6,028 nt of DNA from Candidatus Woesearchaeota archaeon (GTDB lineage Archaea > Nanoarchaeota > Nanoarchaeia > Woesearchaeales > JAGVZT01): NCBI GenBank assembly GCA_017608295.1, contig JAFCGF010000086.1:1-6028 (forward strand), read 5' to 3'. This document shows positions 1 through 6,028 of this stretch, piece by piece. Within the stretch, counting starts at the first letter, position 1. Every line of letters begins with the position of its first letter. The position numbers were made by a program, and so were the translations under genes. The notes beneath the pieces are model-generated. The model was given only the letters and a program-made list of their open reading frames with translations, made no database searches and had not been told where the DNA came from.

Positions 1-1389
1 TTACTGCTTTACAAACTTCCCAACCTTCACTGCCTGTTCTCCGGTTACCTTTACAAGATATACCCCACTGGGCAAGGTGCTGATGTCAATCCGTGTTTTG
101 GGCTCGGTGATCTGCCTTGTGATGAGTTCCTGACCATGAAGATTCACTATGGAGAATAGACTTTTGGCTGGTGCTTCGATGGTGATGTGAGTTGAGGCGG
201 GGTTGGGAGAGATTGCAAACCATGTATTTTGGGGTTCGTTGATCCCTACATATACAGAGTCGTATTTCATTACGGTAACTTTTCCATCATATGCAAAATC
301 ACTATAAGCAACAAGAGGAACGCCAGAAGAATTGATCGCAAGACTGATATGCCCTGCATTGCCTTCGGAAAAGGACATCTCTCCTTCAAAAATCCAACTA
401 CTCTCGGAAAACTTCTTCACACATGCTCCAGGTAGATATCCCATTCTGCAATATGCAGCGTTAAGTTGTCCCAATTGATTTGTCGCTAGACTAATTTTAT
501 TTATATAGCAACCAGTAAAACCAGCTGGACCAACATAACTCCAACTCGTGTCATTATATGACATTACTGATCCATTTAAACCGGCACTTCCATCCGTAAA
601 TCCTACATAAGGTGTTCCAGATTCATCAATGATAAGTTTTGTTCTTGAAATCGTGGCAATTGAAAATCCCGGTGATCCAACATACTCCCAAACTGTTCCG
701 TTAAATTTCATTACAGAAGCCTTATTCTCATAGGACTCATCTGGGAATGCAAGATGTGGTTCATCTGCTGGACTGAAAGCGAGGCTTATATGACCTGATG
801 TCGATTCAGTAAATCCCGGTGAACCTATATATTCCCATTCAACACCATTAAACTTCATGACAGAAGCTCTCCACAAGTGATATTTATCTTGAAATGCAAC
901 ATGAGGAATCCCGGCTTGATTGAAAGCAATATTTGGATAATCGGCATAACCGGAAGAGATACCACGTGGACCAACAAATTCCCATTGACCTTTGCTAAAC
1001 TTCATAACAGATACTTTAGCCGTATCTAGTAAGACATCCAAAAAAGCAATATAAGGCTGGTCATCTGGACTTAGAGCAAAGCTAAGATCAAAAGACACAG
1101 AATTAACAACACTTGAGACATCACCAACATCCACCCAGTTACCGTTATCAAATTTCATGACCACCGGGGTGTAGTCAGCCCAATTGTCAGTAAAAGCTAC
1201 ATATGGCACTCCAGAATTGCTGATGTCTAAATTAATCGAAAAAGCCCGACCCTGTGAGAAACCTGGCATTCCAACATACTTCCACATATAATCTGAGGGA
1301 GAAGATTTCTGCCACTCCTGAGCCGGAAGAACCAGCGGAAAGAGGAGGAGGATAAGCCAGATCCTTGATATTTTAGCTGGGGTGTTCAC
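1..1389 (-). CDS. Secreted seven-repeat beta-propeller-like protein with T9SS type A C-terminal sorting domain
   Basis: 462 residues, complete: TAA stop at 1-3, GTG start at 1387-1389. The GTG is chosen because an in-frame stop lies three codons upstream and it gives a clean signal peptide (K6 and R9, hydrophobic 10-21, cleavage near LPAQ at 21-24). Residues 36-378 hold seven repeats of about 49 residues. Each begins with an aromatic W-x-x-V/I-G motif (W36, W85, W136, W185, W234, W283, W332), has a central G-x-P-x-V-A-F-x-D strand, and ends in a VMKF-like strand (77, 128, 177, 226, 275, 324, 373). Seven such units suggest a seven-bladed propeller (inference). Residues 388-462 are a typical T9SS type A sorting domain: SPNP at 394, GQEL near 419, LPSGVYLVKV at 439-448. 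The protein should therefore be exported by Sec, passed through the T9SS and attached to the surface or released. The start overlaps the stop of the upstream TonB-C gene. Ligand or enzyme activity is unknown; a binding or recognition role is a guess. Confidence 0.9.
   Translation of the reverse strand: MNTPAKISRIWLILLLFPLVLPAQEWQKSSPSDYMWKYVGMPGFSQGRAFSINLDISNSGVPYVAFTDNWADYTPVVMKFDNGNWVDVGDVSSVVNSVSFDLSFALSPDDQPYIAFLDVLLDTAKVSVMKFSKGQWEFVGPRGISSGYADYPNIAFNQAGIPHVAFQDKYHLWRASVMKFNGVEWEYIGSPGFTESTSGHISLAFSPADEPHLAFPDESYENKASVMKFNGTVWEYVGSPGFSIATISRTKLIIDESGTPYVGFTDGSAGLNGSVMSYNDTSWSYVGPAGFTGCYINKISLATNQLGQLNAAYCRMGYLPGACVKKFSESSWIFEGEMSFSEGNAGHISLAINSSGVPLVAYSDFAYDGKVTVMKYDSVYVGINEPQNTWFAISPNPASTHITIEAPAKSLFSIVNLHGQELITRQITEPKTRIDISTLPSGVYLVKVTGEQAVKVGKFVKQ
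250..1284 (-). repeat. Seven tandem coding repeats of about 147 bp (propeller blades)
   Basis: The DNA encodes seven consecutive units with tryptophan-to-tryptophan spacings of 49, 51, 49, 49, 49 and 49 residues. Conservation is strongest at the W-x-Y-V-G-x-x-G-F-S and VMKFN segments. The fifth to seventh units are the most diverged (VMSY, VKKF and VMKY in place of VMKF). This is protein-level repetition with diverged DNA, not a recent tandem expansion. Confidence 0.8.
1386..1389 (-). promoter_or_regulatory. GTGA stop/start overlap (translational coupling)
   Basis: The TGA stop of the TonB-C gene (1388-1386) shares bases with the GTG start of the propeller gene (1389-1387). On the minus strand the start is preceded by GAGAAAAA, giving only a weak GAG ribosome-binding match about five bases away. 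Together these suggest that ribosomes finishing the first gene re-start on the second, so the two proteins are made together. Confidence 0.65.
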
Positions 1390-1799
1390 TTTTTCTCATG
1401 GTTAGAGCCGATCCTGATGGGCATTGCAAATGTTTTTTCAACTTTAGCTCCGTCCTTTTCAGCAGGAATCCATTTGGGCATAAGCGAAAACACTCTCAGC
1501 ATCTCTTTGTCCAGCACATCATTGATCCCATGTATTACTGTAACCCCCTTGAGTATTCCTGATGTGTCAACTGTTATTTTCAAGAAGATTCTCCCCAAAG
1601 TACCTGGTTGTATAAGTGAATCCTGGAAATGTTGATTAATGAATGAACGCATTTCATTACCTCCGCCGGGATATGAAGGCTCCTCAGGATTTGGGAAACA
1701 AACCTCACCAGAGGATTTAACCTTTACCTCTTTGTCGGTTTGTGCCTGGCAGACGAAAGACATACCAGTAAGCAAAATGGTGAAGAACAGGATTCTCAT
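1386..1799 (-). CDS. Secreted TonB C-terminal-domain protein (energy transducer TonB-like)
   Basis: 137 residues from the ATG at 1799. A signal peptide is visible: MRI, hydrophobic 3-16, then CQAQ at 17-20 as the likely signal peptidase I site. Residues about 41-130 match the Bacteroidota TonB-C pattern: PSYPGGGNEM (41-50) followed by SFINQHF, GRIFLKITVD (69-78), G-x-LKGVTVIHGIND (81-94), LDKEMLRV (96-103), MPKWIPA (107-113), then K-x-x-A-K-V and MPIRI (126-130). In classical TonB this fold contacts outer-membrane receptors. Here the proline-rich spacer and a permanent inner-membrane anchor are absent, so a free periplasmic or secreted role is more likely (inference). The open frame extends in-phase to an ATG at 1892 (168 residues). 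I prefer 1799 because it puts the signal peptide at the N-terminus; the longer form would add a basic 31-residue leader. No strong Shine-Dalgarno supports either start. The FVC segment is a poor lipobox, so a lipoprotein is unlikely. Confidence 0.8.
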   Translation of the reverse strand: MRILFFTILLTGMSFVCQAQTDKEVKVKSSGEVCFPNPEEPSYPGGGNEMRSFINQHFQDSLIQPGTLGRIFLKITVDTSGILKGVTVIHGINDVLDKEMLRVFSLMPKWIPAEKDGAKVEKTFAMPIRIGSNHEKK

Positions 1800-1901
1800 G
1801 GGATTTTTGAACAGAGCACAAGCATGTAGCTTTCCTGTGGGTTTTGCCCGGAATTTCTTTTGTGTTTGTTTCATCTCTATTACGTTCACCATCTTGTTTG
1901 A

Positions 1902-1938: not shown

Positions 1939-2871
1939 TTAATTTAAAAACATATTTCGTAAAAATTCTAAGTTTTTTGATGATTTCCTTTCATTTATCA
2001 ACCTTGTATACAATTTTTTGCTTACATTTTGCACTAACTCTCTCTTTGTCAGTCCCAAATATGTACCATTGAGGACTTGGATATGATTTGCAAAATCGTC
2101 AAGTTTTAATCTATTGACGTTAGTAGAATTATAACCGAATCCAAGTATATATAAGCGTTCAGTTTCTTCAAGCACCTTATATGCATGAGAAAATTCCTCG
2201 CTAGGCATTATTTCATCATGAATAATTTTTATCGATTTTGAAGCATTTATCAACTTATCAACAGTTTGATATGATTTAGCATAATCTACAAAATCTTGTT
2301 TCCCTTCAATTTTAAGATGACCCAATTTCCCATGCAAATGAATTATTTTAATGCTCTGTAATAGGGACCATGATTCAATCTCACTGAGACCGAAAGCATT
2401 TTTAATAACTGTTAAGAAATAAAATTCGAAGGATCTGTCGTAGTTAAATGTTATAATTGACAACTTATTCGTTTTAAAATTTTTAATGTCCGTATTTAAA
2501 TGATTCCAGATATACTCATACCAATTATCCTCTTTTGGATCAAATAATTTATTGTAGTCCTCACATTTAAGCAAAGCTTGACAAATTAGTATCTTCCCAA
2601 GTTTAGTGAATTCCTTTCTGTGCTCAAGAAATGCATCAATTGATGTCCTTCCTGAAAATTCAAATTCCTCTTTAAATTTGTCTAAAAGTTTTTCTTTAAA
2701 ACCAAGATCTAAAAGCTCTTTATATTCTGTCACTTCACTAGCTGGAGTTGTATCATAATTGTATTTGTAAAGATTCTCAAGAATTAACTTATTAAGTGCT
2801 GCTCCAGAAGGGAATCCATAAGGTATACTTGCACCTGCGCCTAGAATCAATGTCGTGGATTTTGTAATCAT
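1939..2871 (-). CDS. Stand-alone SIR2-like (SIR2_2-type) protein, putative NAD-consuming defence or stress effector
   Basis: 310 residues, ATG at 2871, TAA at 1939-1941. The core motifs of the SIR2 Rossmann fold are present in order: GAGAS (11-15) for NAD binding, near the N-terminus; SIDAFLE (77-83), common in bacterial SIR2-like proteins; TFNYDR (141-146), with N143 in the place of the sirtuin catalytic Asn; HLHG (178-181), with H180 as candidate catalytic His; and LGFGYNSTN (243-251), the late nucleotide-binding loop. There are only two cysteines (97, 103) and no CxxC pairs, so the zinc module of true sirtuin deacetylases is missing. There is no signal peptide or membrane segment, so it should be cytoplasmic. 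Proteins of this type in ThsA, DSR and SIR2-pAgo systems degrade NAD during phage infection; that role here is inference, since no sensor or partner gene lies beside it. G+C is low in sampled stretches (14 of 60 at 2461-2520, 19 of 60 at 2281-2340, against 25 of 60 at 1501-1560 and 32 of 60 at 3421-3480), suggesting horizontal acquisition. No clear Shine-Dalgarno; the leader is AT-rich. Confidence 0.8.
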   Translation of the reverse strand: MITKSTTLILGAGASIPYGFPSGAALNKLILENLYKYNYDTTPASEVTEYKELLDLGFKEKLLDKFKEEFEFSGRTSIDAFLEHRKEFTKLGKILICQALLKCEDYNKLFDPKEDNWYEYIWNHLNTDIKNFKTNKLSIITFNYDRSFEFYFLTVIKNAFGLSEIESWSLLQSIKIIHLHGKLGHLKIEGKQDFVDYAKSYQTVDKLINASKSIKIIHDEIMPSEEFSHAYKVLEETERLYILGFGYNSTNVNRLKLDDFANHIQVLNGTYLGLTKRELVQNVSKKLYTRLINERKSSKNLEFLRNMFLN

Positions 2872-3142: not shown

Positions 3143-5245
3143 TCAATCCCGTAAACACCTAACCGAAAAAGCATTTGCCCTGTAACTCGGATAATACGAC
3201 ACCGAGTAGTTTTGCTCATTCATCCCATGCGCCCATGCCTTGAACTGCCCGTGTGATGTCGATGACCAGAAGAAGGTGGCAAACGCATCAAACTCCCAGA
3301 CCCTATTGAACAAGCTTGCTCCTGTCAGCAATGCATTGAATCCTGAATATCCAGAGTACTTCAAGGGAGCTCCTGCAAAGGCGTTGTTAGTCCAGTTGGT
3401 AAAAAGGATGTTCCAGTCAGCTTCGGAAGGCACGTGCCAACCTGGAGGGCATAAGCCCTGGATATCTTCTGTGTCTTCAAACCTCATCAATTCATCCCAC
3501 TGGTATAATGCTCCCTGCTGGGCGCAGTTCATTGCCAATTCCTTGTAACAGTACTTCTCAACCATACAGTTGTCCCGTTGTGCCATCGAACCGTTGATTT
3601 GCTGACCGTGATTCAAATTGGAAGCCATCCAGCATTGACTGCCGAGCAGGACAGTAAGGTAAACTACACTATCTCTAATATCAACAAGTGATGAGCCACA
3701 TGTCATTAGGGATGAAGGGAAGACTTGAATACTGCGTGTTTTTAAAGCGGAGCATGAGGCAAAGTTGGTGTATCTATAGGTTACCTGGTGTATCCCCACT
3801 CCCGCCATTGCTGGGTTGAAATAACCGGTGATTTGATCCACCCCTGGTCCAGAATATGTGCCTCCCAAGGGGATTCCGCCTTTTAGTTTAAAGGATTTAG
3901 CATTGAGAGTTGTGATGGTATCGAAGCATACAGAGAAAGAAACATCGGGTTGTTCTCCAATAGACATGGTTACGGAGTTAGATGTAGCAGGATTACCAGT
4001 AACACAAGTTTCATTGGAAGTCAGTACACAAGTTACTACATCCCCATCTACAGGCAGATAAGAATAGATCGAAGTACTTCCCCCAGCGTTGACTCCGTTG
4101 ACCTTCCACTGAAAGCCAGGGGAACTGCCTCCGTTTGTTGGTGTTGCCGTAAAGGTAACCAGGATACCTCCGCATACTGGATTGGCTGATGGGGCGATGG
4201 TGATGCTAACAGGTAACAAGGGATTCACAATCATGGTGATGGTGTCACTGTTTGCTGGATTATTGGTTGTGCATTGTTCGCTGGATGTCAAAACACAGGA
4301 TATCTGATCGCCTGTAATAGGAGTATAAGTATATGTTGAATCATTTGTACCTACAGGTGCTCCATTCACCTTCCACTGAAACACTGGTAATACTCCTTTG
4401 TTAATGGTAGTGGCAGTGAAAGTGACTGATTCACCTTCGCATATTGGATTCTCTGATGCAGTGATAATAATAGAGACAGGAAGATTGGGAAGGACATGGA
4501 TGATCAACGAATTTGATGTATCTGGGTTGTTTGATCGGCAGGGTTCAAAAGAGGTCACTATGCAAAAGATAGTATCGGTTTGGGTAGGAATGTAAGTAAA
4601 TACTGAATCGGAGTAATTTGTGTCAACTCCGTTGATGAACCATTGCAACAATGGATTTGTGCCTGTATTTATAGAGGTTGCTGTAAAAGTTACAGGAGTA
4701 TCTGCGCATACTGTATCATCCGTCGCAAGAATATTCACATCAATGGTATCCCCGGCTTCAACCCAAACATCCAACTGGGTTGGGGTAATTGCTTCACAGG
4801 CGTTGGAATCAGTGTAGTTTACCGTGACCCATTGCCATCCGATTGTATTCCAGGTAATAGTTACTGATGTATCTATCGTCGTTCCTCCCGAAGAAATAAC
4901 TCCACCCGCCGACAACCCCCATTGATATAAACTGTTTCCCGACTCCGTAAAATAGGCTGTAGGCAGTCCAATACAAGCGCTGTCAGTTCCTGTAATACCT
5001 GGAATTGGATGCGGGTGAATTGTTACAAGTAAGGAAGAGCCGACACCGATCCCGCAGCAATTGCTCCCATATACCGATATATTTCCGGAAGTTGCAGTGC
5101 TGGTAAAATTAACTGTGATAGTATTAGTATTCTGACCGCTTATTATGGTTACTCCGATAGGAACATTCCAGAAATAGTCCGTGGCATAAGCAATCAGTGG
5201 TACAGAATATATGACTCCGTTCGCATTTTCACAAACATTTCCCAA
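3143..5245 (-). CDS. 3' part of a frameshifted surface protein: PKD-like and Ig-like repeats with C-terminal FISUMP domain
   Basis: 700 residues if read from the TTG at 5245. That start is not credible: there is no signal peptide, it begins inside a domain, and the frame stays open back to 5350. Domains: PKD-like 1 (1-80, beginning with a VCENANGVIYSVP motif) and PKD-like 2 (81-167); three Ig-like repeats of 89 residues (about 168, 257 and 346 to 431), each with P-x-C..V-T-F-T-A-T, Q-W-x-x-N-G-V/A and a C-V/I-L/V-T-S strand; a glycine-rich domain with GGTYSGPGV (461-469); and a FISUMP (Fib_succ_major) domain, 513-700, with QCWMASNLN (537-545), YQWDELM (581-587), LCPPGWHVPSEADW (598-611), FWSSTS (659-664) and terminal SVRCLRD (694-700). 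The many paired cysteines suggest disulfides after export. The protein ends in FISUMP and has no T9SS sorting domain. FISUMP function is not established; an adhesin or surface role is inferred. The missing N-terminus lies in the next open frame upstream, separated by a 19-bp duplication. Confidence 0.85.
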   Translation of the reverse strand: MGNVCENANGVIYSVPLIAYATDYFWNVPIGVTIISGQNTNTITVNFTSTATSGNISVYGSNCCGIGVGSSLLVTIHPHPIPGITGTDSACIGLPTAYFTESGNSLYQWGLSAGGVISSGGTTIDTSVTITWNTIGWQWVTVNYTDSNACEAITPTQLDVWVEAGDTIDVNILATDDTVCADTPVTFTATSINTGTNPLLQWFINGVDTNYSDSVFTYIPTQTDTIFCIVTSFEPCRSNNPDTSNSLIIHVLPNLPVSIIITASENPICEGESVTFTATTINKGVLPVFQWKVNGAPVGTNDSTYTYTPITGDQISCVLTSSEQCTTNNPANSDTITMIVNPLLPVSITIAPSANPVCGGILVTFTATPTNGGSSPGFQWKVNGVNAGGSTSIYSYLPVDGDVVTCVLTSNETCVTGNPATSNSVTMSIGEQPDVSFSVCFDTITTLNAKSFKLKGGIPLGGTYSGPGVDQITGYFNPAMAGVGIHQVTYRYTNFASCSALKTRSIQVFPSSLMTCGSSLVDIRDSVVYLTVLLGSQCWMASNLNHGQQINGSMAQRDNCMVEKYCYKELAMNCAQQGALYQWDELMRFEDTEDIQGLCPPGWHVPSEADWNILFTNWTNNAFAGAPLKYSGYSGFNALLTGASLFNRVWEFDAFATFFWSSTSHGQFKAWAHGMNEQNYSVSYYPSYRANAFSVRCLRD
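3146..3709 (-). other. FISUMP (Fib_succ_major) domain coding segment
   Basis: Residues 513-700 of the 3' fragment form a full-length FISUMP domain, recognised by Q-C-W-M..N-L, Y-Q-W-x-E, G-L-C-P-P-G-W-H-V-P-S..E-W-like and the closing S-V-R-C-L-x-D. Seven cysteines (516, 538, 560, 566, 574, 599, 697) fall within it. The domain is abundant in Fibrobacter and Bacteroidota extracellular proteins; its molecular role is unknown. Confidence 0.85.
3953..4744 (-). repeat. Three tandem 267-bp Ig-like coding repeats
   Basis: Three consecutive 89-residue units share the pattern V-S-I-x-I..N-P-V/I-C-x-G/x..V-T-F-T-A-T..P-x-x-Q-W-K-V-N-G, then a Y-x-Y-x-P strand and C-V-L-T-S-x-E-x-C-x-x-x-N-P-A-x-S. Units two and three are closest to each other; the first (from about 4744) is more diverged. 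Such arrays are typical spacer stalks of Bacteroidota surface proteins. Confidence 0.8.
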
Positions 5246-5315
5246 TCCGTTAATTTGTTGTGCTGTATCGGGTAGATAACAATCAGAAAACCTTGTAAGA
5301 AACCCATCTCCATAG

Positions 5316-6028
5316 TTAATTCCTTGGTTGTTTATTAGTTGATGTGCGGTTTATTAGTTGATGTGCGCCGGGAGTTGCAATATTTGTGTCAGATTGTGAA
5401 GCGCCTGAGAAATATATAATACCGCATGAATCAAGTGCAATAGATCCGCTCCAATCACCAGCTGGACCTCCATAATAGGTTCCCCATACACGCTGACCAT
5501 TTTCATTGAATTTTGCTATAAATGCATCCTGATACCCTCCTTGATAATTTGTTAAAAATGATCCGGGAGAAGCAATATTGTTGAGCGATAGAGTCCAGCC
5601 TGCAATATAGCTATACCCCGAATCGTTAACTGCAAGCCCCATGATGGATAATTCTGTCGAATCCCCACCATAATAAGTGCCCCAATTTCTGATACCATTT
5701 AAGTCGAATTTAACAAGAAACGTATCCCAATCACCGCCTTTTAACGGTTGATGAGCTCCGGGTGTTGAAATATTGGTTAAGGACTTTGTGTGTCCATAAA
5801 GAAAAATACTTCCCTGGTTTGAGATAACGCACTTTCTTGATTGTTCATCTAATTCTCCGCCATAATAAGTGCCCCATAATCGCTGTCCATTTGAATCAAA
5901 AAGAACCAGAAAAGCATCCTGCGCCCCTCCCAAAGTGTTCTGAAAGGCTCCTGGTGTTGCGATATTATCAGATGAATTAGTACTCCCAGTGAGAATTACC
6001 TTTCCAGTTGTATCAGCGTAAACACAGA
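5316..6028 (-). CDS. 5' part (in window) of the same surface protein: SBBP beta-propeller repeats, truncated by frameshift
   Basis: Partial: the frame is open to the window edge (first full codon at 6026) and ends at TAA 5316-5318, giving 236 residues in the window. A TTG at 5933 could be called as a start, but it falls inside a repeat and the sequence before it is clearly the same protein. Four SBBP units with a period of 64-66 residues are visible: A/S-T/S-P-G at 23, 87, 152 and 217; WGTYYGG at 51, 115 and 181; and a D-A/T-F-L/I-V/A-x-F-D/N strand at 37, 101 and 167. The fourth unit is cut off after HQLIN (222-226), and the last ten residues (RTSTNKQPRN) are out-of-frame readthrough. Its missing strand (DGFLTRFSD) appears in the other frame a few codons later. 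SBBP repeats form beta-propellers in exported proteins; the ligand is unknown. The signal peptide would lie beyond the window. Confidence 0.85.
   Translation of the reverse strand, partial: CVYADTTGKVILTGSTNSSDNIATPGAFQNTLGGAQDAFLVLFDSNGQRLWGTYYGGELDEQSRKCVISNQGSIFLYGHTKSLTNISTPGAHQPLKGGDWDTFLVKFDLNGIRNWGTYYGGDSTELSIMGLAVNDSGYSYIAGWTLSLNNIASPGSFLTNYQGGYQDAFIAKFNENGQRVWGTYYGGPAGDWSGSIALDSCGIIYFSGASQSDTNIATPGAHQLINRTSTNKQPRN
5330..5367. repeat. Perfect 19-bp tandem duplication causing the frameshift
   Basis: The unit gtttattagttgatgtgcg occurs twice with no mismatch and no spacer (5330-5348 and 5349-5367). Nineteen is not a multiple of three, so the second copy shifts the frame. The SBBP frame then ends at 5316-5318, and the downstream frame meets a TAA at 5353-5351, inside the duplicated unit. 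Confidence 0.95.

Follow-up and report, generated by a model that had tools for sequence, protein, structure and literature searches.

A 19-bp tandem duplication interrupts, as assembled, one member of a large SBBP-PKD-FISUMP gene family

Introduction

In the window (the whole stretch of DNA that was analysed, 6,028 nucleotides) a gene for a large, probably exported protein is interrupted at a perfect short duplication, which raises the question of whether such a duplication marks a reversible switch, a plain loss of function or an error of the assembly. The original prediction favoured the switch and named the other two as alternatives; in our analysis these alternatives were found to fit the locus at least as well.

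The duplication and the broken frame

The unit GTTTATTAGTTGATGTGCG is present in two perfect, directly adjacent copies at positions 5330-5367 (Tandem Repeats Finder: period 19, 2.0 copies, 100% match; in agreement with our script), as had been predicted:

5330..5348, no strand assigned: GTTTATTAGTTGATGTGCG, copy 1 (Tandem Repeats Finder and script)
5349..5367, no strand assigned: GTTTATTAGTTGATGTGCG, copy 2, identical and adjoining (Tandem Repeats Finder and script)

The next longest perfect tandem that the script detected in the window has a period of 8, 200 sequences simulated with a first-order model reached a period of 11 at most, and a third copy of the unit was not found anywhere in the window with up to three mismatches allowed; on these grounds a chance origin of the repeat was rejected. 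No base is common to the ends of the unit and its flanks, and no stable fold was found in the one 101-nt strand that was folded (z +1.73), so that shared ends and a hairpin (the latter judged on one strand) were both rejected as causes of recurrent slippage, and nothing seen favours the recurrent gain of a copy. The exact unit was found in none of 139 related loci and in no viral contig, a plasmid origin was rejected (near match not found), and no RNA element in the window reached the gathering threshold.

The repeat sits where two minus-strand frames part, which agrees with the original prediction. The SBBP frame, coming from the window edge (6026-5319, 236 codons), terminates at a TAA (5316-5318); the PKD_6/FISUMP frame, read stop to stop, extends from 5350 down to 3143. 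The two part within the repeat itself (AHQLIN, encoded by the repeated unit, is present in both), and the frame changes because the offset of 19 equals 1 modulo 3; the duplication lies inside a reading frame and shifts it. The parts of the gene are as follows:

5316..6026, minus strand: SBBP beta-propeller frame of 236 codons, forming the 5' part of the broken gene; it is still open where the window ends, and its last 10 residues are out of frame
3143..5350, minus strand: 3' part of the same gene, in which the last propeller blade ends and PKD_6, PKD/Ig-like repeats and FISUMP follow (735 codons stop to stop)
5030..5272, minus strand: stretch with the best PKD_6 match (PF19408, E 7.1e-22), at residues 20-100 in the piece of 728 residues
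3146..3691, minus strand: C-terminal FISUMP (Fib_succ_major) domain (TIGR02145, 104.1 bits; PF09603, E 2.2e-23)

A second PKD_6 stretch in the 728-residue piece (the downstream window protein, which represents a cluster of three sequences) also passes. The upstream frame matches NF047494 (LipL53-type SBBP) with 65.4 bits, under the 400-bit cut-off, and Pfam SBBP with 16.8 bits, under the cut-off of 20.5; with this Pfam match taken as sub-cut-off, the order SBBP propeller, PKD_6, PKD repeats and C-terminal FISUMP is found in the window. The frame of 954 residues that the removal of one copy was predicted to restore fits the coordinate arithmetic, but the full gene is longer, its start being past the window end (judged by locus L001, approximately the first third of the gene lies there).

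Homologues across the joint

A contig scan with an alignment of the downstream part returned 79 loci (from the best 80 of 373 confirmed stretches), of which 78 are titled Bacteroidales or Bacteroidetes MAGs. The other one (L056, a FISUMP relative) lies on a contig titled Alphaproteobacteria, by binning error or transfer. SBBP repeats are present in 15 of the 79 loci, where each gene has five to seven matched TYYGG-type motifs. In 11 of these 15 (L001, L002, L029, L032, L033, L035, L037, L041, L047, L054 and L067) the whole SBBP-to-FISUMP gene lies in a single frame, 1,342-1,987 codons long from stop to stop, in L016 and L046 a single frame runs up to the end of the DNA, and in L003 and L042 the gene is broken (L003 also has another gene, in frame). 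An ENKGQ motif, in an N-terminal exported-looking segment, was found in 15 relative loci, and the corresponding part of the window gene lies beyond the end at 6028.

In tblastn comparisons of the relatives' proteins with the unchanged window, the query is continuous across the site (L001 from position 725 to 726, L002 from 713 to 711) while the window frame shifts; for some further queries the match jumps a few residues there. As judged from these collinear matches, the break is in the last propeller blade. In the protein alignment the downstream piece falls at the end of the last blade, and the upstream piece is misplaced on earlier blades, the blades being repeats.

The stretch from blade to PKD was found in 14 of the 43 genomes of the family of G002, and 48 genes span the joint (up to 63 candidates were scored per genome), 29 of them from two genomes (G001 with 18, G033 with 11). 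In 47 of the 48 a single frame passes through the joint with no stop; the lone exception (G001:C207, i.e. L120) shifts frame within the blade that is broken in the window, a little further upstream. As the unbroken joint is the rule, the duplication is most likely the derived state, and the homologues are continuous where the window changes frame, as in a pseudogene made by frameshift. A same-species genome was not found among the sequences searched, the DNA matches listed from the 43 family genomes, where up to 6 candidates were scored in each, being 64-80% identical over parts of the gene. The comparison of the homologous locus in relatives that had been proposed with the original prediction gives, in sum, a joint in one frame in 47 of 48 genes and the unit in 0 of 139 loci. 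We regard it as confirmed, on frames and homology and for the DNA as assembled, that there is one broken gene, and as supported that the tandem duplication which breaks it is derived.

Age and consequences of the break

We prefer, with a probability of roughly 0.6, to read the locus as a tandem duplication that recently abolished the function of a dispensable member of the family. The event is considered recent because the flanks are undamaged and not because the copies are identical: the 19/19 identity bounds divergence only to less than 14.6% (95%), and dating by it was rejected as too weak. In the 2,913 nt of the two open frames no further stop or frame break was found, which limits neutral change since the break to less than approximately 2.3% (stops only) to approximately 0.6% (indels at 0.2 of substitutions), with assumed indel ratios of 0-0.2. 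Of the predicted very recent event, 'recent' is accordingly supported, by the flanks and not by the identity of the copies, and the claim of an otherwise intact gene holds for these 2,913 nt, about the first third of the gene being outside the window.

Under the preferred reading, the 19-bp tandem duplication would have arisen in one member of a large SBBP-PKD-FISUMP family of probably exported proteins, in a Bacteroidales-related uncultured bacterium, and would shift the frame in the last beta-propeller blade. The product (predicted, like its export, from the observed sequence, frames and homology) would consist of approximately the first half of the protein followed by 10 foreign residues, with the PKD repeats and the FISUMP domain lost. 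Slippage can remove perfect tandem copies, and slipped-strand loss of one copy could, in principle, revert the lesion.

The size of the family is apparent from a PKD/FISUMP query, which has 83 matching stretches in G001 (genome of approximately 4.3 Mb, with 18 genes that have the SBBP-PKD joint) and 13-31 in each of four other genomes; these are counts of stretches and not of genes, since several stretches may share one gene. In so large a family single members look dispensable. In line with this, other lesions, for the most part elsewhere in the gene, have broken at least 6 of the 48 genes that span the joint, as would be expected of a large and partly redundant family:

L042: frame change at an A-run ahead of the propeller
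L120: frame change in the last blade
L122: frame change in PKD_6
L123: frame change in the N-linker, within a seven-base tract
L126: frame change in a PKD repeat
L003, 4177-4205: 14-bp (2 x 7) tandem in the N-linker, where an in-frame TAG splits the gene

The last blade, broken in L120 as well as in the window, may contain a weak spot. The figure of 6 in 48 is a lower bound, many genes being cut by contig ends, and the DNA was at least partly covered for 46 of the 48 (all but G001:C189 and G001:C219). Also left out of the six were an in-frame TAG four codons from a contig end (G001:C155), breaks in L028, L043 and L081 and a stop in L052 (all FISUMP genes outside the 48), and, in L048, L054, L131, L132 and L135, stops that are weak or lie upstream (1 to 5 queries). 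Furthermore, a single DNA sequence can encode the tail of protein P0121 in one frame and the head of protein P0056 in another (0 of 2,000 shuffles fit), and these two proteins, each listed with a longest contig of 11,509 bp, would apparently derive from a further SBBP/PKD/FISUMP gene split by a frame change.

Ordinary frameshift pseudogenes occur in large paralogous surface-protein families. The window gene resembles them in that this one member carries one lesion and others are broken differently, and differs from them in showing no further decay in the part seen (the 2,913 nt of the two frames), which makes it young if real. As it stands, the locus is one broken copy in a large family.

A possible assembly artefact

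A perfect short duplication in a metagenome contig proves neither recency nor a switch, and the alternative that we take most seriously, though we hold it unlikely, is that contig ends overlapping by 19 bases were joined unmerged, or that the unit was doubled by a local misassembly, the real gene being intact. Such a join would leave exactly 2.0 copies of a unit whose ends share no base with the flanks, as observed here; a 19-bp unit is also shorter than common assembly word lengths, and the undamaged flanks are equally compatible with this origin. As a yardstick, essential genes of the same 43 genomes were inspected (rpoB 39 and rpoC 37, copies split over contigs or cut at their ends being left out), and 2 of these 76 in-contig copies (rpoB of G007 and rpoC of G019) were found to be frame-broken, presumably by error, which makes an assembly error conceivable for the window too. 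The broken fraction in the family (6 of 48, with 29 of the 48 from two genomes) differs from that in the yardstick (2 of 76) only at the borderline (Fisher p = 0.054), so that some of the six may be assembly errors as well. Against an artefact, perfect two-copy repeats of period 16-250 were not found in the 79 loci (862,596 bp), nor in L080-L139 (248,741 bp, partly the same DNA as the 79 loci), which suggests that such joins are not common in comparable assemblies; moreover, the three other long frames of the window are open, each with a recognisable domain match.

The proposed reversible switch at the 19-bp site

In the phase-variation reading, the surface protein would be reversibly switched off and on as slipped-strand events remove or add a 19-bp copy. 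Two features suit a switch: the frames on either side show no damage, and the gene that is hit codes for a large, probably exported type of protein. Waite et al. (2001, 2003) reportedly described spontaneous sequence duplications in pneumococcal capsule genes. A precedent of this kind, with spontaneous and reversible sequence duplications in those genes, appears in an excerpt of PMC4243769, and tandem duplications in wchA appear in one of PMC4022640. The window shares with the cases in these excerpts (PMC4243769, PMC4022640) a short tandem duplication within an ORF that silences a gene for a surface structure and could revert by loss of a copy; whereas reversible capsule loss is described there, the window is a single assembled sequence among many paralogues, with no on-state seen.

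Simple sequence repeats (SSRs) offer another comparison. SSR contingency loci are typified by many short units kept at the site. The proposed mode, in which a change of repeat number alters the frame, is the same, but the window has two 19-bp copies of a unit that is absent from the relatives examined, and a repeat tract kept across relatives with varying copy number was not found (unit in 0 of 139 loci, 47 of 48 genes in frame at the joint). Neither 'duplication' nor 'tandem' is used in the excerpts of a review of such loci (PMC11868660). A switch is further disfavoured by the presence of two copies only, by the want of shared end bases that would favour the recurrent gain of a copy, by the absence of a stable fold in the strand examined (101 nt, z +1.73) and by the breaks of the relatives, which vary in kind and mostly in place. 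Taken together, these observations leave the predicted reversible on/off switch unsupported, with no sign of a maintained switch at the 19-bp site, and we consider this reading improbable. If reads showed both forms together, the locus would be an example, from uncultured Bacteroidales, of phase variation by tandem duplication in proteins that are large and probably exported.

Seven-base tracts in the family

The family has two coding positions with strong seven-base periodicity, the N-linker and the FISUMP loop. In the N-linker (from GFSYDLY-type to HRIDF-type motifs, 28 distinct) the pooled match at lag 7 is 0.486 over the 27 linkers of at least 35 nt, and 0.22-0.28 at lags not divisible by seven; in the FISUMP loop (EKY to YQWDE, 39 distinct) it is 0.57 over 36, versus 0.19-0.30 at other lags. 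The control values at lag 7 are 0.248 in stop-to-stop frames of at least 100 codons (79 loci, six frames) and 0.298 outside them. Taken singly, 15 of the 28 linkers and 30 of the 39 loops reach a match of 0.50 or more, and the rest do not look heptameric. Homologous positions are filled by different heptamers, as in the following examples:

N-linker tracts: L001 4066-4212, L120 610-732, L035 4081-4206
FISUMP-loop tracts: L011 5804-5842, L004 7261-7296, L040 1111-1146

The FISUMP loop of the window itself is not heptameric by eye, and its linker lies beyond the window. Such tracts are unusual for coding DNA. According to a survey cited in the excerpted text of PMC4679880, seven-base repeats outnumbered every other class in most genomes, and repeats in coding DNA were mostly multiples of three. 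Tract length is divisible by three in 27 of 28 linkers (the exception, L123, is out of frame there) and in 39 of 39 loops, though seven is not. Off states are rare in the assembled sequence, which speaks against frequent switching, and with the frame kept in 27/28 and 39/39 the heptamer tracts were not accepted as a proven switch; contingency or diversity-generating sites are a possible role for them.

A broader idea, to which we give little credence, is that the family is a contingency-gene bank, with many SBBP-PKD-FISUMP proteins per genome, slippage-prone seven-base tracts and frequent frame breaks, in which the 19-bp duplication would be one off-allele and a changing subset would be on. 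The many paralogues, the several frame breaks and the seven-base coding repeats make this idea testable with existing reads, and the tracts may merit more attention than the 19-bp duplication. Among the matches listed (FISUMP/SBBP; heptanucleotide repeats with Bacteroidetes or phase variation) no title concerned such tracts in the SBBP/FISUMP family, and an earlier mention in print is possible. TIGR02145 occurs three times in PMC4704652, a paper on Fibrobacteres.

Finally, that the window holds two separate genes, or that re-initiation or frameshifting still yields the second half of a broken gene, is hardly credible: the downstream frame does offer a TTG codon (ORF list start 5245), but 47 of 48 relatives have a single open frame across the joint, a downstream start would be inside the protein without a signal peptide ahead, and no recognisable slippery site was seen by eye in the 32-nt overlap.

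Other genes in the window

Three further minus-strand genes are present in the window:

1..1389, minus strand: 462-aa protein with a T9SS C-terminal sorting domain
1386..1892, minus strand: 168-aa TonB_C-domain protein, whose end overlaps the start of the 462-aa T9SS protein
1939..2871, minus strand: stand-alone SIR2-like protein of 310 aa (PADLOC SIR2 models 35 bits; Pfam SIR2_2 sub-cut-off)

As judged from these matches, the 310-aa SIR2-like protein is possibly part of an anti-phage defence system.
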